Positions 254-16,511 of a DNA stretch of 28,923 bases are shown here, in pieces. Every line of letters begins with the position of its first letter. Position 1 is the first letter of the stretch. The notes under the pieces are model-generated. The model had not been told where the DNA came from. It did no database searches and saw nothing but the letters and a program-made list of their open reading frames with translations. The DNA is taken from IMG/VR virus record IMGVR_UViG_3300009370_000133, positions 1 to 28,923 of that record, one strand, 5' to 3'. This stretch comes from a virus. The position numbers and the translations under genes were made by a program.

Positions 254-396
254 TTGATTTAATTAAACGAGTGTACAGAATACCAAAGCAATACAAGTGG
301 AATCAGAGCCACAAGTTCGACTGGCACGCCAAAGAGCGCAGAGAGCGTGAGAAGCAGGCAGAGCGGGACTATAAAGAGGCGCGGGGGCGAGTGTGA
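250..396 (+). CDS. Small highly charged hypothetical protein (48 aa)
   Basis: A 48-residue frame begins MIDLIKRVYRIPKQYKW and is very rich in Arg, Lys and Glu in its second half (KERREREKQAERDYKEAR), probably one long charged helix. An AAGG sits seven bases upstream of the ATG. It overlaps the previous gene by four bases and the RusA start (GTG at 393) by four bases, so it is translationally coupled on both sides. No family recognised; real mainly by context and spacing. Confidence 0.6.
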   Translation: MIDLIKRVYRIPKQYKWNQSHKFDWHAKERREREKQAERDYKEARGRV

Positions 397-764
397 ACCA
401 AGTGGACATCAAACCAATGTCAGTCAACCAAGCATGGCAGGGTCGCAGATTCAAGACGCCAAAATACAAAGCATGGCGTGAACAAATTAGTTTCATGCTG
501 CCGCCAGTGGTGGAAATTCCAGAAGGCCGCATGATGCTTATGGTGACGTTTGGCGTGTCCTCAAAGCTGGCTGATATGGATAACATGCTCAAGCCATTCA
601 TTGATGCCTTACAGGACAAATACGGCTTCAATGATCGACAGATTTACGTGGGCCTTGTGGGTAAGGTTGATGTTCCAAAAGGCAAAGAGTTCATCAAGTG
701 GGAATTGCAGGATATTTCGGCATTTGATGATTTTTGTGAGGCATTGAATTGGGGGTGTGAGTGA
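393..764 (+). CDS. rusA: RusA-family Holliday junction resolvase (crossover junction endodeoxyribonuclease)
   Basis: This 123-aa protein matches the RusA family, which cuts four-way DNA junctions symmetrically as a dimer using acidic metal-binding residues. Seen here: the N-terminal SVNQAWQGRRF segment, and the catalytic block ADMDNMLKPFIDAL with Asp61, Asp63, Asn64, Lys67 and Asp71, followed by NDRQI with Asp81. Length is normal for the family (about 120 aa). GTG is the start, overlapping the preceding stop; Met9 is an alternative. In lambdoid phages RusA-type genes lie just before the Q gene and resolve recombination intermediates before packaging. It would act with the Rad52-like annealase and SSB encoded at the right end of the window. 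Confidence 0.93.
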   Translation: MNQVDIKPMSVNQAWQGRRFKTPKYKAWREQISFMLPPVVEIPEGRMMLMVTFGVSSKLADMDNMLKPFIDALQDKYGFNDRQIYVGLVGKVDVPKGKEFIKWELQDISAFDDFCEALNWGCE

Positions 765-982
765 TGCCTAAAACTAGAATTATCAAAAGAATAAAAGTAA
801 ATGGTTGCGTCGAGTTTGCAATACAGCAAAAACATTATCTTTTACGTTGGATGTGGGTTGATGCGTCTTACAACAAATTTATCTGGGAACAAGATAGCTT
901 CAAGACTTATGAGCAAGCAAAAAAAGCATTGTGTTATTTCGATGGATCAAAGCCAAAAGTTGAGGTAGTAAGTGAGCATTGA
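764..982 (+). CDS. Hypothetical protein (72 aa)
   Basis: The frame begins MPKTRIIKRIKVNGC and ends VEVVSEH. I place the start at the ATG at 764, which overlaps the RusA stop as TGATG and has a GGGGG run eight bases upstream; a GTG one codon earlier is possible. The N-terminal third is basic and the middle is aromatic (HYLLRWMWVD). No domain recognised. It lies between RusA and the candidate late antiterminator and overlaps the latter by eleven bases. Confidence 0.65.
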   Translation: MPKTRIIKRIKVNGCVEFAIQQKHYLLRWMWVDASYNKFIWEQDSFKTYEQAKKALCYFDGSKPKVEVVSEH

Positions 983-1589
983 ATCAGCCACAAGAAAGAT
1001 GCACCCACAGACATGCAACCTGATGTCATCGGGCGGGGGTGGGTTTGAAGCCATTATAAGCGGTGATATTCAAGCCTTGCTAATGGCCTGTGAAGCCGAC
1101 CCAATCACATGGGCATATCTGTTTTCTTACTTCGACATGGGATGCAGTTATGACAGGTGGGAACATGTGGGGTGGGATGTTGAGAAGGTTGGCGTTATGA
1201 AAATACACGATGCCCCAATATCCACTTCTGTACGCTTCACACGCAATTATAAAAAAATCCATGTGTCATGTTCGATTGATGAGTTCAGCCGAATGCTGAA
1301 GGCTTATATTTATTCGCACTTCCTAAACAACACAGAAGGCGACATGTTGAAAAAGATCAAAAAGGCATCAGCAGCAGCCGATGAAATTAGCCAAGGTCTT
1401 GCTATTTATCTATCAACTAATCCGTCAGAAATGAACAGAATCAGCAAATATTTTAGACCAATTAAGCCAGACACGTTCCGCAGAAAATACAAGAGATTTG
1501 CCATTAAGGCAAACAAACTTCTGTACTCAAAATTGGTTGATCTTGTAAACCAAATTCTCTTTTTTTACGAAGAACAAGAAAAATATTGA
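972..1589 (+). CDS. Candidate Q-like late antiterminator (205 aa, assigned by position)
   Basis: This is the last gene of the left plus-strand cluster. It starts at a GTG with a GAGG six bases upstream. Its TGA lies inside the -35 box of a strong promoter that precedes the leader and late genes, exactly where lambda places Q relative to pR'. The sequence has a glycine run (SSGGGG), a mixed middle and a very basic C-terminal third (RRKYKRFAIKANK) that could contact nucleic acid. I do not see the zinc-binding cysteine pattern of lambda Q or a clear match to other Q families. The role is inferred from location; a hypothetical early protein is the alternative. Confidence 0.5.
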   Translation: MSIESATRKMHPQTCNLMSSGGGGFEAIISGDIQALLMACEADPITWAYLFSYFDMGCSYDRWEHVGWDVEKVGVMKIHDAPISTSVRFTRNYKKIHVSCSIDEFSRMLKAYIYSHFLNNTEGDMLKKIKKASAAADEISQGLAIYLSTNPSEMNRISKYFRPIKPDTFRRKYKRFAIKANKLLYSKLVDLVNQILFFYEEQEKY

Positions 1590-1614
1590 CTTTGCGAGGT
1601 TTTTTGTAGATAAT
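1586..1614 (+). promoter_or_regulatory. Late promoter (sigma70 type)
   Basis: TTGACT at 1586-1591 and GATAAT at 1609-1614 are separated by 17 bases; each matches consensus at five of six positions. Transcription would begin near 1621. The -35 box overlaps the stop codon of the 205-aa gene. It is the only strong promoter I see ahead of the virion genes, so it probably drives all late transcription. Confidence 0.75.
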
Positions 1615-1620
1615 TCCTAG

Positions 1621-1790
1621 TATGCAAAGGTAACATTAAAGCATTGCAGTGCTTTTATCAATGCATAGCCATAGAATCAGTTGGTGGTGGGGTTGATGAT
1701 TTTTTCATAGGTTGTTTACCTCATCGTCTTTGTTTAAAAGACAAATCTGATCCCGTGTTCTGTTTGGCGACGTGCACGGGATTTTTTCTT
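1621..1790 (+). ncRNA. Late leader transcript resembling lambda 6S RNA
   Basis: About 170 bases separate the predicted start site from the first terminator, with no ORF of note. Near the 5' end two alternative hairpins are possible: GCATTG 1641-1646 with CAATGC 1659-1664, and AAGCA 1639-1643 with TGCTT 1650-1654 followed by a T run. A short constitutive leader ending at a terminator is the pattern of lambda's 6S RNA, where Q loads during an early pause. Inferred from layout only. Confidence 0.45.
1750..1790 (+). terminator. Intrinsic terminator in the late leader (tR'-like)
   Basis: ATCCCGTG at 1750-1757 pairs with CACGGGAT at 1775-1782 (8 bp, 17-base loop), followed at once by a T-rich tract (TTTTTTCTT). 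It would stop transcripts from the 1586 promoter unless an antiterminator acts. Confidence 0.75.
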
Positions 1791-1908
1791 TGGTAGGGCC
1801 TGAACTGGTGAAGTGGGCATTGTGTGATTTCACAATTCCTTATTTCAACCGTTTCATTGGTATTGCACTACCAAGAAACACACTATGATTGCTCCCTTAT
1901 AAAACATG

Positions 1909-1940
1909 AGCCTGACTGATCAAATCAGTTGGGCTTTTTT
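1909..1940 (+). terminator. Second intrinsic terminator in the late leader
   Basis: AGCCTGACTGAT pairs with ATCAGTTGGGCT as a 12-bp stem (two G-U pairs) around a three-base CAA loop, followed by TTTTTT. This is a very strong terminator. An ATGCC follows the T run directly. With the terminator at 1750 it forms a double block between promoter and late genes, as expected for antitermination control. Confidence 0.85.
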
Positions 1941-1962
1941 ATGCCTAAAATTTGCCAAGCAC

Positions 1963-2025
1963 GGGCGGACAGAACCTTACCATTTTGCCTAGGCCAATCG
2001 GCCATTAACTTAGAGCTGACCGCCC
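1963..2025 (+). promoter_or_regulatory. Structured 5' leader of the first late virion gene
   Basis: GGGCGG at 1963-1968 pairs with CCGCCC at 2020-2025, extended by CAG/CTG across an A-A mismatch. Inside sits a perfect small hairpin, GGCC-AATC-GGCC (1992-2003). The helix ends nine bases before the ATG at 2035, and no Shine-Dalgarno sequence is visible in those nine bases. The structure may set translation of the downstream gene. No match to a known riboswitch class is evident. Confidence 0.45.
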
Positions 2026-2034
2026 AACCTAACC

Positions 2035-2682
2035 ATGAGAAGAAGACGAGACACAAATCAAAATGTGCTAAAGTCTTTGTCGGACCTGCCCACTGATGTT
2101 CCAAGCCTGTCAGGTGAGCTTTTTTACACCATAGACGGTTCCCCTGAAATGTATGTCATAGGGAGTGATGGCAATCCTAATTTGTTAGTGGATGCTTCTG
2201 GGCAGTCGTCTGGATTTGGGTTTATAGATTATGCGGATACGGGCAATAAGGTAACTATGCCCGCAAACACATGGGTCGATATACCCAATGATGGACAAGG
2301 TACTACAGGGAACGATTCATATAAGCCTGACAATGTAAATGATTTGTTAGACACCTCAAGCGGCTATATTGATGTTTCTGAGCTTAATTTGGGTGATGAT
2401 ATATTAATACGCAATAGTTACACAGTGATCCCAAAGGTCAATGACTCAAAACTGGAAATTCGTTATGTTCTGGGTAGCGGGGCCAGCCAGTACGTTTTGC
2501 AGGCAGAGGTAGCCACATTAGATCGTGGTGCGGGGGTTCCATACACATACTCTTTGCGAACAGATTATATTTATGTCGGCAACAACAACACCAGGCAAAA
2601 CCCTATTCGACCACAACTGCGACTTGAGTTTGGTGGAAGTCTCGTAAATTCTGGTACGGTTATAAAAGCGGCCACTAAATGA
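2035..2682 (+). CDS. Predicted virion surface protein, beta-rich (215 aa)
   Basis: This is the first gene after the late promoter and leader. It has a basic start (MRRRRDTNQN), then a segment SLSGELFYTIDGSPEMYV, then a long alternating Ser/Thr/Asn/Gly and hydrophobic stretch typical of jelly-roll or fibre domains (GYIDVSELNLGDDILIRN). There is no catalytic motif, signal peptide or membrane segment. Its stop overlaps the LamG-like gene, and the two probably make an appendage, decoration or host-binding structure. The ATG lacks a visible ribosome-binding site and follows a GC-rich helix. The exact role cannot be read from sequence. Confidence 0.6.
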   Translation: MRRRRDTNQNVLKSLSDLPTDVPSLSGELFYTIDGSPEMYVIGSDGNPNLLVDASGQSSGFGFIDYADTGNKVTMPANTWVDIPNDGQGTTGNDSYKPDNVNDLLDTSSGYIDVSELNLGDDILIRNSYTVIPKVNDSKLEIRYVLGSGASQYVLQAEVATLDRGAGVPYTYSLRTDYIYVGNNNTRQNPIRPQLRLEFGGSLVNSGTVIKAATK

Positions 2683-3974
2683 TTAAGGTTTACAAGGACG
2701 CTGCGGCAGGCAGCATTGTGCTGGAGGACAATAATGGCGCGCAATTTTTAAACTCCTTACAGGCAATTATTAATGTTGATGACGCTAACAATATTGACAT
2801 ACAAGATAATTCAAAAAACATAAAGCTTGTATATGACAACCCGCATGATGAGTTTATAGATTTTGACGACAATGTGTATCCTGGAACGGTGGCACAAGTT
2901 GTAAACACTTTAAATGCTTTGTTTCAAACCAGCGGCACGCCTACTGGCGAACTGCCAGAAATCACATCAAGCTTAACTGCCAGTATAACTACAGGCGCGA
3001 CACTTAATTATGAACTTATTGCTGACTATGGCGTTGGTTATGAGTGGGATTTGTCAAGTGTGCCTGGTGTAACCACAGTCGAAGGGAATGTACGTAAATT
3101 AGTTGGTGGAACAGGACTGGCGGCAGGGACGTACAACATACCTGTTAAGGCTATAAATTACAACGGCGAAGATTCGCAAACTTTAGTTTTGACAGTTGCT
3201 AATCCACCCTACAACAACACTAAGTCAGTGTTTTTTCGTCAGAATGACTATTGTGAAATGACGGCATCAACCAGTTCGCCTTTTTATAGAACTGGAAATA
3301 ACACTGGTAACGCATTTAAGGTGGCATTTTGGTTTAAGCCAAGCACCTCGAACAATCAAAATCAAACAGTTGTTAGTTTTGGTGGCAATGATTTGGCCAA
3401 TGAAGGTCGGGTTTTAATTGGCTACAATGGCAACAACTTGAATGCTGGCCGTAGAAGGATGCGATTTTTTTACGGCACAAATAACAATAATTTACAATTT
3501 TATACACCATCAGGAAGCACACAGGCAGGCGTATGGGCGCATTGGGTCTTTTTATATGATGGCGGAACAACTGAAAACGGATCGGGCGGCATAAACACGT
3601 CTTATTCGAGGTTTAAGATTTACAAAAATGCGGTCTTGCAAACCCTCACAACGTCAAATAACAATTATGGTTTTTCTGGGCAAATCCCAGCGGAAATTTA
3701 CAGGATGGGAAGGCTGTTAAATTCAGGTCAATATTTGCGTAACTGCAATATAGATGAATATGCGGTTTTTGATAATGCTTCAACAACAGATATAGCATCT
3801 ATTTATAACAGTGGCACGCCAAGTGATTTGGGTTTGCTTACTAACCCGCCTATTCAGTATTTAAGAATGGGGGACGCCAATGATGTGTTTCCAGATTTGT
3901 ACGATTATGAGGGAAGCAATGACGCTGAAATGATCAACATGACCAGTGCAGATATTGTAAGTGATGTTCCATAA
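2679..3974 (+). CDS. LamG/concanavalin-like domain tail or capsid fibre protein (431 aa)
   Basis: The N-terminal ~95 residues (MIKVYKDAAAGSIVLEDNNG) look like a virion attachment region. Residues ~95-175 form a putative immunoglobulin-like domain (YEWDLSSVPGVTTVEGN, then GTYNIPVKAINYNGE). Residues ~180-400 resemble a LamG/ConA-like jelly roll (FKVAFWFKPSTSNNQNQTVVS, WAHWVFLYDGGTT, RFKIYKN, NIDEYAVFDNA). LamG-type folds bind glycans, and in phages they occur on receptor-binding or decoration proteins. It overlaps the upstream virion gene and abuts the endolysin gene. Receptor binding is inferred; the fold assignment is reasonably firm. Confidence 0.7.
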   Translation: MIKVYKDAAAGSIVLEDNNGAQFLNSLQAIINVDDANNIDIQDNSKNIKLVYDNPHDEFIDFDDNVYPGTVAQVVNTLNALFQTSGTPTGELPEITSSLTASITTGATLNYELIADYGVGYEWDLSSVPGVTTVEGNVRKLVGGTGLAAGTYNIPVKAINYNGEDSQTLVLTVANPPYNNTKSVFFRQNDYCEMTASTSSPFYRTGNNTGNAFKVAFWFKPSTSNNQNQTVVSFGGNDLANEGRVLIGYNGNNLNAGRRRMRFFYGTNNNNLQFYTPSGSTQAGVWAHWVFLYDGGTTENGSGGINTSYSRFKIYKNAVLQTLTTSNNNYGFSGQIPAEIYRMGRLLNSGQYLRNCNIDEYAVFDNASTTDIASIYNSGTPSDLGLLTNPPIQYLRMGDANDVFPDLYDYEGSNDAEMINMTSADIVSDVP

Positions 3975-4755: not shown

Positions 4756-5148
4756 ATGATGAAAAAGTGGGTAATGATTGGCGGTGCTGTCGTGTTGGCT
4801 CTAGGTGTCCAGCAAATGCGAATAAACAGTAAAGAGCGAAAAATTGCCAATAAAAACCTTGAGATAACTCGCTTGAGCAATGAGCTGTCAGCGGTAATCG
4901 ATGCCAATGAATCACAAAACAAAACAATATCCCGACTCAGGGAAGCGAATGAGCAGTGTGCCCTTGATAAAGCGGTGAACTTAGAAAACTCCAAATTAGA
5001 ACTAGCATCCCAATCTGGGCGCATTCGCTCTATCCGAGAAAAGTATGAAAAACTCAAGACATCACAAGTTGCTGGGAAGTGTGCTCAGTTTCGTGTTGAT
5101 CCTGACGTGTTTGACCTCGTGCAAGAAGCGCGTAGTGATCAAGACTGA
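4756..5148 (+). CDS. Rz: Rz-like inner-membrane spanin (i-spanin, 130 aa)
   Basis: A single N-terminal membrane anchor (residues ~5-18, WVMIGGAVVLALGV) is followed by a long periplasmic coiled coil (KERKIANKNLEITRLSNELS and on), the standard layout of lambda Rz. The spanin complex fuses inner and outer membranes in the last step of lysis. The 3' part contains, in another frame, the start of the Rz1-like lipoprotein gene at 5045, a hallmark of spanin pairs. The start may be the ATG at 4756 or the adjacent one at 4759. Confidence 0.85.
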   Translation: MMKKWVMIGGAVVLALGVQQMRINSKERKIANKNLEITRLSNELSAVIDANESQNKTISRLREANEQCALDKAVNLENSKLELASQSGRIRSIREKYEKLKTSQVAGKCAQFRVDPDVFDLVQEARSDQD

Positions 5149-5326
5149 GGAAGTCCCGGTATATATCAAAACATATGTGCCGATTCCAGATGATTTTTTT
5201 GAGTGTAAGTATGCGGTATTAAGCCCGGATATGACGTGGCTTGAGACATTGCTTAAACAAGAAGAAGCTGTGAGTGTGTGTATAGAGTCTCAACAGTCAA
5301 TTCGTAACCTTCAACCTAAAGAATAA
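5045..5326 (+). CDS. Rz1: Rz1-like outer-membrane lipoprotein spanin (o-spanin, 93 aa)
   Basis: The protein begins with a basic start and hydrophobic signal (HHKLLGSVLSFVLILTCLTSC) whose lipobox Leu23-Thr-Ser-Cys26 predicts cleavage and lipid attachment at Cys26. The mature part is about 68 residues. It starts inside Rz in a different frame and runs 178 bases past the Rz stop, the overlapped spanin architecture. The mature protein is less proline-rich than lambda Rz1. With Rz it should form the periplasm-spanning complex, which points to a Gram-negative host. Confidence 0.85.
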   Translation: MKNSRHHKLLGSVLSFVLILTCLTSCKKRVVIKTEEVPVYIKTYVPIPDDFFECKYAVLSPDMTWLETLLKQEEAVSVCIESQQSIRNLQPKE

Positions 5327-13844: not shown

Positions 13845-15937
13845 TGACTTTAGAAGAAGAAATGCAAAAGCGTGGTTTGTTACCATCTGAGCAGACAACT
13901 ACCGACCCATTGTTAGCTGAAATGCAAAGGCGCGGTTTGAATCCTGTCCAAGAAGAAAAGGGACTTGTGTCTCGTGCCTGGGATGCCACAAAACAAGCAG
14001 TGCAAGGTAATGCGGAGTTCAAAGATGCCGGTAACTGGCAAGACTATGTGGATGCCCGTGCAAAATCAGGTCATTATGATGATCGTGGCTTCTTTGGACG
14101 TGGTCCACTAGATGATGTGATGCAAATTGACAAGGCTGGCACATTCGGAAATGTAGAAGACCAGATCAACATGATTAAAGAGCGTTTTCCAGATGCTCGG
14201 TTCACACAGGATGCAAATCAAAACCCGATGTTGGTGCATGGCGACCAAAAGTTCTATATCAATAAGCCAGGACTTGATTTGCAGGATGTAGGGGAAGGTG
14301 CCGGAGAAGCAGCCTTATATGCCTTGGGTGGCGGAGCTGGCGCAGCTGCAAAAGGCCTTGGACTGGCAGCAAGAATGGGCGCGACTGGCGTTGCAGAAAC
14401 CGCTCTCAATGCGGGGGCGCAAAAGATGGCTGGACGTGATGAGATTGACGGTACGGAAATGGCCATTGCTGGTCTTGCTGGTGGCCTGTTTGAGGGCTTG
14501 GCTCCTGCCGTTTCTAAAGTCTGGAGGTCAATGAAGAACTCAGGCAAGTCAAACAAAGAAGCAGGCAAGGAAATTGCTCAAGAAATGGGCTTGAGCCTAA
14601 ATTCCGAACAGACTGAACGGCTTGGAGACCTGGCGCGTAATTTGGACCCCAGTCAAGTAGACATGAACACAATTATTGAGCATGTCGAACTGAATCAAAC
14701 GCCTACATTGGGAACACTTACCAAAAACCGTGACATTCTTGAAACAGAAAACGCTTTAAGACACACAGGACGCGACACGACTCGTAAGAAGTTGCAAATG
14801 CTTGATGATGCCAATGAAACCGGATTGCAAAGAGCAATGAGTCAAGCGCAAACCAACATGGGTGGCAGTGGCAGAGACTATTACACGGCTGCACAGGACA
14901 TCGGTGATGCGGTATCAAATGCCCAAAAAGCCGCAAAATCTAAAGTCAATGACGCTTATAACTCAGTGCAGGGTGCATTTGTCGGTTCAGAGCCATTCAG
15001 AGCCGCTCCGCAGCGTTTTAGGAAAGCATTAAGCAATGAGGGTGTGTTATTGGCTCCAAGCACAACAAAACGTTCAAATGATGTTTTGAATGATGTGTCT
15101 AAATCTATTGAAATGATGGGTGATGCAAAGGGTGTTTCGTGGCAAGCAGTTGAAGCACAAAGAAAGCGTATTAATTCGGCCTTTGCTGGTGCTGAAAAAT
15201 CAGACGCCAGAGCGTTGCAAATCATTAAAAATGAATATGATGAAATAGTGGATGAAGCTTTTAGTAATTCCCTGTTGAGCGGTTCAGAGGATGCTATTAA
15301 AAGCCTAACAAAAGCACGCTCTTTGGCTACTGATTACTTTAAGAAGTTTGAAAGCAAAGAGGAAGGCGGAAGGGTGATTAAACAGTGGTTGCAAGATGGC
15401 ACAACACCAGAGGATATAAGTAACGCTTTTTTGAGTAAAACTGGCGTTGTTGGCAAAAATGCACCTAAAGTGGCAAAAGCTTATCTTGATGTGGTTGGCA
15501 GAAACACACCAGAACACGTTGCATTGAAAGAATTAGCAATCCAAAGATTCACGGCTGACAAGGGACGTGCCGCAATTCGCAATAAATTAAAAGATGCAAT
15601 GACCAATGGTAAAACTTTTATGAATGAGGTGTTTACACCTAAAGAGCTAGGCTTTTTGAGTCGCACGGTTTCTTTCATTGATGGAATTTCACAGAAAGGT
15701 ATCAATGCACGCTCATCTGGTAGTGCTGAACGTTTTTTCAGATGGCTGAATCAGTCAGCGGGTAATGATGTGAGCTTATCTGGACTTTTGAATGGTGTAA
15801 AAAAGACGCTTTCAATGATTACAGGCGCAGAAAGTAGAGCAACAGCCTTACCCACTAGACAAATTGCTGTAAACCCTGCGGCTGTTGGTGCAGCCCAAGG
15901 GTCAACGGCTTTGCATAACTACCCCTCGAACCAGTGA
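13844..15937 (+). CDS. Large internal virion / DNA ejection protein (697 aa)
   Basis: The N-terminus carries two tandem short motifs, EEEMQKRGLLP and LAEMQRRGLNP (25 residues apart), common in large phage internal proteins and possibly peptide interaction or sorting motifs. Residues ~145-230 are Ala/Gly-rich and weakly hydrophobic (EAALYALGGGAGAAAKGLGL), suited to membrane insertion during ejection. The remainder is long helices. It is the largest protein of the window and last of the three-gene set, matching P22 gp16/gp20-type or T7 gp16-type roles. No lytic transglycosylase motif is seen. Confidence 0.7.
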   Translation: MTLEEEMQKRGLLPSEQTTTDPLLAEMQRRGLNPVQEEKGLVSRAWDATKQAVQGNAEFKDAGNWQDYVDARAKSGHYDDRGFFGRGPLDDVMQIDKAGTFGNVEDQINMIKERFPDARFTQDANQNPMLVHGDQKFYINKPGLDLQDVGEGAGEAALYALGGGAGAAAKGLGLAARMGATGVAETALNAGAQKMAGRDEIDGTEMAIAGLAGGLFEGLAPAVSKVWRSMKNSGKSNKEAGKEIAQEMGLSLNSEQTERLGDLARNLDPSQVDMNTIIEHVELNQTPTLGTLTKNRDILETENALRHTGRDTTRKKLQMLDDANETGLQRAMSQAQTNMGGSGRDYYTAAQDIGDAVSNAQKAAKSKVNDAYNSVQGAFVGSEPFRAAPQRFRKALSNEGVLLAPSTTKRSNDVLNDVSKSIEMMGDAKGVSWQAVEAQRKRINSAFAGAEKSDARALQIIKNEYDEIVDEAFSNSLLSGSEDAIKSLTKARSLATDYFKKFESKEEGGRVIKQWLQDGTTPEDISNAFLSKTGVVGKNAPKVAKAYLDVVGRNTPEHVALKELAIQRFTADKGRAAIRNKLKDAMTNGKTFMNEVFTPKELGFLSRTVSFIDGISQKGINARSSGSAERFFRWLNQSAGNDVSLSGLLNGVKKTLSMITGAESRATALPTRQIAVNPAAVGAAQGSTALHNYPSNQ

Positions 15938-16077: not shown

Positions 16078-16115
16078 AAGTTAGTCCATCAATTAACCAA
16101 ATTATCTTACCACAG

Positions 16116-16139
16116 GCCGCAATTCCAGCGGCTTTTTTT
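16116..16139 (+). terminator. Intrinsic terminator abutting a start codon
   Basis: GCCGC (16116-16120) pairs with GCGGC (16128-16132) around a seven-base loop, followed by seven T residues. The next base begins the ATG of the zinc-ribbon gene. The stem is short, so it may attenuate rather than stop transcription; antiterminated late transcripts would pass. Confidence 0.65.
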
Positions 16140-16511
16140 ATGCCTATGTTATATGAAAGCAAGTGCGATATCTGCGGCACGGTGCATGAGTTCTACTGCA
16201 AAGCCTCAGAGCTTAAAGACTCATATCCTGTTTGCTGCGATATCCAAACACACCGCTATTTTTCCCCGCAATCAACCCCGCAGATTGCCTCAAGTACCGC
16301 GCGAGTATTTGAAAACTACAAATGTCCAGAAACAGGCGTTGTTGTGACAAGCGACCGCCAAAGAAACGAGATTCTAGCCAAGCATAACTTGATCGATGCC
16401 AGAGAAACGGGAACGGGAAAGGATCATATCAAACGGGCAAAGAAGCGAGCCGCAAAGCTGAAACAAGACGACAGTGTTAGCACTCAGTACACCGAATTAT
16501 CAACCACATAG
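16140..16511 (+). CDS. Small zinc-ribbon protein, FmdB-like N-terminus (123 aa)
   Basis: The N-terminus MPMLYESKCDICGTVHEF resembles FmdB-type zinc ribbons (M-P-x-Y-x-x-x-C-x-x-C-G). A second Cys group CCDIQ near residue 33 is followed by THRYFSP. The second pair is adjacent rather than C-x-x-C, so zinc ligation would be unusual. The C-terminal third is basic and helical (KDHIKRAKKRAAKLKQ). It lies just before scaffold and capsid genes, where small FmdB-like proteins often occur in podovirus genomes. There is no visible ribosome-binding site, because a terminator precedes the ATG directly. Confidence 0.65.
   Translation: MPMLYESKCDICGTVHEFYCKASELKDSYPVCCDIQTHRYFSPQSTPQIASSTARVFENYKCPETGVVVTSDRQRNEILAKHNLIDARETGTGKDHIKRAKKRAAKLKQDDSVSTQYTELSTT

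Follow-up and report, generated by a model that had tools for sequence, protein, structure and literature searches.

Gene layout of the window and of a second virus

The analysed DNA, referred to as the window, is 28,923 bases long and was taken from an IMG/VR record of an environmental virus. Its features of interest are collected in Table 1. A gene coding for a 205-aa protein follows a RusA-type resolvase gene and a 73-aa ORF, and is separated by non-coding DNA, which extends to 2034, from the first gene of a late operon of approximately 20 kb. The far end of the window carries, on the minus strand, genes for an integrase, an SSB and an Erf-like annealing protein. The virus is a temperate phage, and the ends of the contig appear to fall in an early region that is missing from the record. 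Imperfect short tandem repeats resembling CGCAGCATCCC occupy the extreme end of the contig (28850-28923) and may have ended the assembly.

Table 1. Features of the window around the 205-aa gene and its downstream region
Feature	Position	Strand	Evidence or remarks
RusA-type Holliday junction resolvase gene	393-764	+	PF05866 24.3 bits; phrog_11573 7.7e-40
73-aa ORF between rusA and the 205-aa gene	761-982	+	ORF lists and annotation
205-aa Q-like gene, GTG start	972-1589	+	TGA stop 1587-1589; L017 homologue; weak N-terminal profile match to lambda-type Q
Predicted pR'-like promoter, TTGACT-17-GATAAT	1586-1614	+	sigma-70, 10/12; counterpart in L017 5152-5180
Predicted 6S-like leader RNA	1621-1788	+	168 nt; hairpin at its start, 1621-1667; fold z -4.6
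Predicted intrinsic terminator 1 (tR'-like)	1748-1788	+	-17.0 kcal/mol, z -4.0; ATCCCGTG/CACGGGAT stem, T6
Predicted intrinsic terminator 2	1904-1940	+	-17.2 kcal/mol, z -5.7 (fold of 1904-1938)
Conserved inverted repeat, CCAAGCACGGGCGGACAG ... CTGACCGCCCA	1955-2026	+	Ends 8 bases before the start codon at 2035
Late operon behind the putative switch	2035-22291 (end about)	+	Lysis-like genes, small and large terminase, portal, major head, tail

Several details of the late operon were recorded. Between the non-coding region and an M15-like lysis gene there are two ORFs of 215 and 431 aa (2035-3974) that are absent from the related locus L017 described below. They are probably inserted cargo or tail-fibre-like genes; the family search with the 215-aa ORF gave no match. 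Two overlapping ORFs in different frames at 4756-5326 look by eye like an Rz/Rz1 spanin pair, the second including a lipobox-like LTSC. Farther downstream, a terminator-like hairpin followed by a T-run (16115-16133) is located in the gap between a gene ending at 15937 and another starting at 16140.

The 205-aa homologue together with its downstream elements was found in one other virus only, represented by the locus L017 and by L097, a longer copy of 16.6 kb. The gene order in this second virus is rusA, a 60-aa ORF, the Q-like homologue, a promoter at its stop codon, a leader, a terminator and a lysis gene. Upstream, L097 includes a cI-type repressor, a replication initiator and NinB, which is the lambdoid order. 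The M15-like lysis gene (named by eye) is 71% identical to that of the window, and the terminase and portal belong to families other than the window's. If the late switch is a self-contained unit, such a regulatory module should recur in phages whose packaging genes differ, as it does here. The second virus was present in two metagenome samples, 3300025108 (L017) and 3300006921 (L110), and the two copies appear by eye to be identical over the Q-like gene and the leader.

Promoter, leader, terminators and inverted repeat

Sigma-70 matches at the 9/12 level occurred as often as expected by chance (11 found versus 11.2 expected in 5 kb). Sites with at least 10/12 matches number only two on the plus strand of the complete window, at 1586 and 24305. 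Therefore, there is none inside the late operon. The L097 sequence has three plus-strand 10/12 matches, one of which lies at the cI-type repressor gene; an early promoter would be expected there, and this site served as a check of the scan. In the window and in L097 alike, one 10/12 promoter is no more than 5 bases away from the Q-like gene's stop codon; that of the second virus (TTGACA-17-AAGAAT) is found 5 bases past the stop. The start of transcription in the window is predicted at about 1621. A -10-like hexamer, TAACAT (1631-1636, 4/6), is a candidate pause element picked by eye, without statistics, and repeats in the promoter spacer were also seen by eye only. Neither a pause element nor a Q binding element could be established. 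An 11-base sequence, ATTGACTTTGC, is identical in the window's promoter core and at the late promoter of Klebsiella phage P18-100 (L108); it is absent from the other 11 lambda-type Q loci and from L097. This match was given little weight because half of it is the -35 consensus.

The region following the predicted start is strongly structured. The fold of 1621-1800 had a minimum free energy (MFE) of -58 kcal/mol, and none of 200 shuffled sequences was as good (z -4.6). When the complete window was scanned for hairpins followed by T-runs, five plus-strand matches were obtained, and the top two (1751-1781 and 1910-1934) correspond to terminators 1 and 2. Terminator 1, whose loop is large, for that reason escaped a standard terminator scan. 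The shorter leader of the second virus, about 70 nt, combines a 5' hairpin with a terminator. Of the two hairpin and T-run sites found in L097, the stronger sits behind the promoter. The outer stem and tail of terminator 2 resemble this single terminator (L097 8688-8710).

Most of what the original prediction had proposed for this region agrees with these results. The near-consensus promoter overlaps the stop codon of the 205-aa gene, as the coordinates of the two elements indicate, the non-coding leader is close to the anticipated 170 bases, and two terminators could be located. The proposal that the second terminator is the stronger one failed, since both are equal in energy. The suggestion of alternative hairpins in the leader is possible, considering that the third match of the hairpin and T-run scan, a weaker one at 1655-1699, falls inside the leader, in competition with the MFE fold.

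Between terminator 2 and the late genes there is an inverted repeat whose arms, 18 bases (CCAAGCACGGGCGGACAG, 1955-1972) and 11 bases (CTGACCGCCCA, 2016-2026), are identical in the window and in L097 (8807-8921). The 18-base arm is, tied with a stretch in rusA, the longest identical run shared by the two sequences. Pairing of the arms leaves a single mismatch, at an identical position in the two viruses; the enclosed stretch measures 43 bases in the window versus 86 in L017. The repeat folds as a closed stem in both cases, with a z score of -4.3 in L017, which is significant, and of -1.4 in the window, which is not. It directly precedes the first late start codon in both viruses even though the first late gene differs, the window having two extra genes before the lysis gene. 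No Shine-Dalgarno-like sequence was evident by eye near the inverted repeat in either virus. The 18-mer CCAAGCACGGGCGGACAG was also encountered in L144 inside an unrelated ORF, and this occurrence was taken as chance.

The 205-aa protein and its relation to lambda Q

The 205-aa protein had been described as lying outside the standard Q families, and the searches bore this out. Neither this protein nor its L017 homologue matched any Pfam family at E<=10, and hence none of PF03589, PF06530 and PF06323, while lambda Q, used as a control, matched PF03589 with an E value of 6e-58. Searches of NCBIfam, PHROGs and the PDB with the 205-aa protein returned nothing informative. The CxxC zinc motif of lambda Q is absent from both homologues, which have a single cysteine in common, C40. 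The two AlphaFold models had pLDDT values of 35 and 45 and were unusable. No Q family like this protein was found in the searched literature, a body of text that leaves subscription papers mostly outside.

Homologues were scarce. None was detected in 50,697 phage records or in 72,556 plasmids; exact-peptide scans produced 71 stretches in bacterial genomes, none of which was confirmed, and 17 in IMG/VR, none with a homologue. The one relative was reached only through the neighboring gene: an alignment of 9 rusA sequences was used to fetch loci, the best 80 of 547 confirmed loci were kept, and one of these 80, L017, included a homologue. Among 6,787 ORFs in 96 loci this was the only match besides the window's own protein (L017 4545-5147, phmmer 3e-22). 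Two further scans and a degenerate DNA pattern added only L110 and L132, which are the second virus in another sample; the DNA pattern identified 33 stretches, and the 31 beyond the known pair had no relative. A protein of XM1 encoded two genes past rusA is equal in length to the 205-aa protein, which was considered a coincidence. The L017 homologue is 35% identical to the 205-aa protein, and their alignment begins at residue 1, in support of the GTG start at 972. The two proteins are most alike at residues 16-42, where 19 of 27 residues are identical.

These residues fall in an N-terminal segment that could be weakly aligned to lambda-type Q. A profile made of the two homologues was compared by hhalign with a set of 12 lambda-type Q proteins (lambda and 11 others), and residues 1-69 aligned to residues 1-70 in a weak match (E 0.0027, probability 11%); the segment compared reads MxLESxxKxxSPKS...TDVMAA in the lambda Q family. 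An unrelated rusA alignment gave an E value of 0.073 for comparison. When columns were shuffled, the score was reached in 1 of 1000 trials, and the alignment started at both N-termini in 4 of 1000. In a search of 10,633 ORFs with the two-member profile, the best two matches outside its own family were lambda-type Qs (E 0.8 and 1.2); of the other ten lambda-type Qs, one ranked 20, eight ranked 607 or worse, and lambda's own was unreported. The reverse search of the ORFs with the lambda-type Q profile placed neither homologue among its best 14. Single-sequence hhalign comparisons were weak: of 357 decoys taken from real ORFs, 6 scored as high as the 205-aa protein, and 2 equalled or exceeded the L017 homologue. 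The BLASTP comparison of the 205-aa protein with lambda Q was not significant, and their identity in the joint alignment was 13%. Taking these sequence comparisons together, we are inclined to think that the approximately 70 N-terminal residues are remotely homologous to those of lambda Q. The N-terminal segment of lambda Q is unstructured when alone, and in a 2020 article its function is described as elusive (PMC7171158).

A candidate late switch and its comparison with known Q-type systems

The promoter-like, leader and terminator sequences, the order of the genes and their conservation in the second virus are directly observed. They compose a Q-type layout, i.e., a gene that ends the early operon, a promoter just downstream, a leader, an intrinsic terminator and a late operon. 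The original prediction of a geometry typical of Q-dependent late control is thus supported by position, sequence and conservation. Judging from the DNA alone, the locus is quite likely a lambda-type pR'-6S-tR' late switch in which the 205-aa protein acts as Q. RNA polymerase would start constitutively at the promoter, make a short structured RNA and stop at one of the two terminators. Late in lytic growth, the 205-aa protein, a product of the last gene of the early operon, would load on the polymerase at or near the promoter, and the loaded enzyme would ignore both terminators and transcribe the lysis, packaging, head and tail genes. The start site, the loading at a promoter-proximal pause, the antitermination and the 205-aa protein as its agent are what we infer from this layout.

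Other explanations were considered. The promoter, leader and terminator could define a free-standing small RNA, with the late genes transcribed from another promoter or by read-through in the absence of a dedicated antiterminator. Lambda 6S is a known short RNA of this kind, and the pronounced structure of the leader would fit such a product. Nonetheless, this explanation is unlikely because the late operon has no other 10/12 plus-strand promoter, the tandem terminators would block it if there were no antitermination, and L017 preserves the placement immediately after the Q-like gene. The terminators also bear on the idea that late initiation is activated by the 205-aa protein as a DNA-binding factor and that they only insulate the early operon. 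Late activators are used by many phages, and the protein lacks a recognised Q domain. However, the promoter is already near consensus, and both terminators lie downstream of it, where an activator would not help the polymerase past them. This role is slightly less probable than a free-standing small RNA. Antitermination through the leader RNA, or through an N-like protein and Nus factors, as in HK022 put or lambda nut, would agree with a structured leader that begins with a hairpin, but we consider it very improbable: boxA-like TGCTCTTTAACA sequences, with up to 3 mismatches, were absent from the leader and numbered 23 in the window versus 34.7 expected, and Rfam gave no match.

The suggestion that the 205-aa protein belongs to an undescribed class of antiterminators holds in part. 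The protein is outside the known Q families, but the mechanism proposed is a known one and the N-terminal residues are perhaps related to lambda Q. No undescribed mechanism was found, and the protein likely represents either a fourth lineage of Q that has diverged strongly or a distant branch of lambda Q. It is tentative, and rather doubtful, that the protein represents a fourth Q family keeping only the N-terminal segment of lambda Q while the inverted repeat acts in the late mRNA as a second cis element that adds control. If a fourth lineage from uncultured phages were true, it would mean that the switch architecture outlives the protein sequence.

The layout was compared with that of 12 lambda-type Q loci (lambda and 11 others), scanned from slightly upstream of the Q stop codon. 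A promoter of at least 9/12 was found near the Q stop in 5 of the 12. Terminator-like sites, one or more per locus, were found in 11, including L099, whose sole site ends at the Q stop. In lambda the promoter is 43 bases and the terminator 212-264 bases past the stop. A leader hairpin no more than 2 bases from the predicted start was common to lambda, the window and L097 and was not seen in the four remaining loci where a promoter had been called. The lambda Q/pR'/6S/tR' system (PF03589) and the window share the gene order, a promoter just past the gene, a leader starting with a hairpin, a terminator with an ATCCCG...CGGGATTTTTT stem and the weak alignment of the Q N-termini from residue 1. 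Unlike lambda, the window has two terminators and lacks the CAACGATGGGTTAAT initial sequence, and its protein differs from lambda Q in the zinc motif, the Pfam match and the low identity already mentioned.

The order rusA, small ORF, Q is also that of mEp237 and DLP12, where YlcG holds the place of the 73-aa ORF, as the 60-aa ORF does in L017. QuuD of DLP12, which we take to be a 21-type Q (PF06530), is found behind rusA and YlcG and would have the same job as the 205-aa protein, but it is 127 aa long, and the 205-aa protein does not match PF06530. According to PMC6606751, which deals with the structure of 21Q, Q depends on two DNA elements, one that is -10-like and lies in the initial transcribed region and a Q binding element located between -35 and -10; Q then narrows the RNA exit channel, which keeps terminator hairpins from forming. 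Phage 82 Q (PF06323, a family named in PMC7171158) is likewise comparable in its place and presumed job and different in its Pfam family. AlpA of Pseudomonas aeruginosa, likened here through its description in PMC7969949, is a promoter-loaded antiterminator with a terminator just downstream, although it is a bacterial cell-death regulator. As stated in PMC7171158, three Q families without significant similarity hold equivalent genome positions. A further unlike Q at such a position is therefore to be expected rather than shocking.
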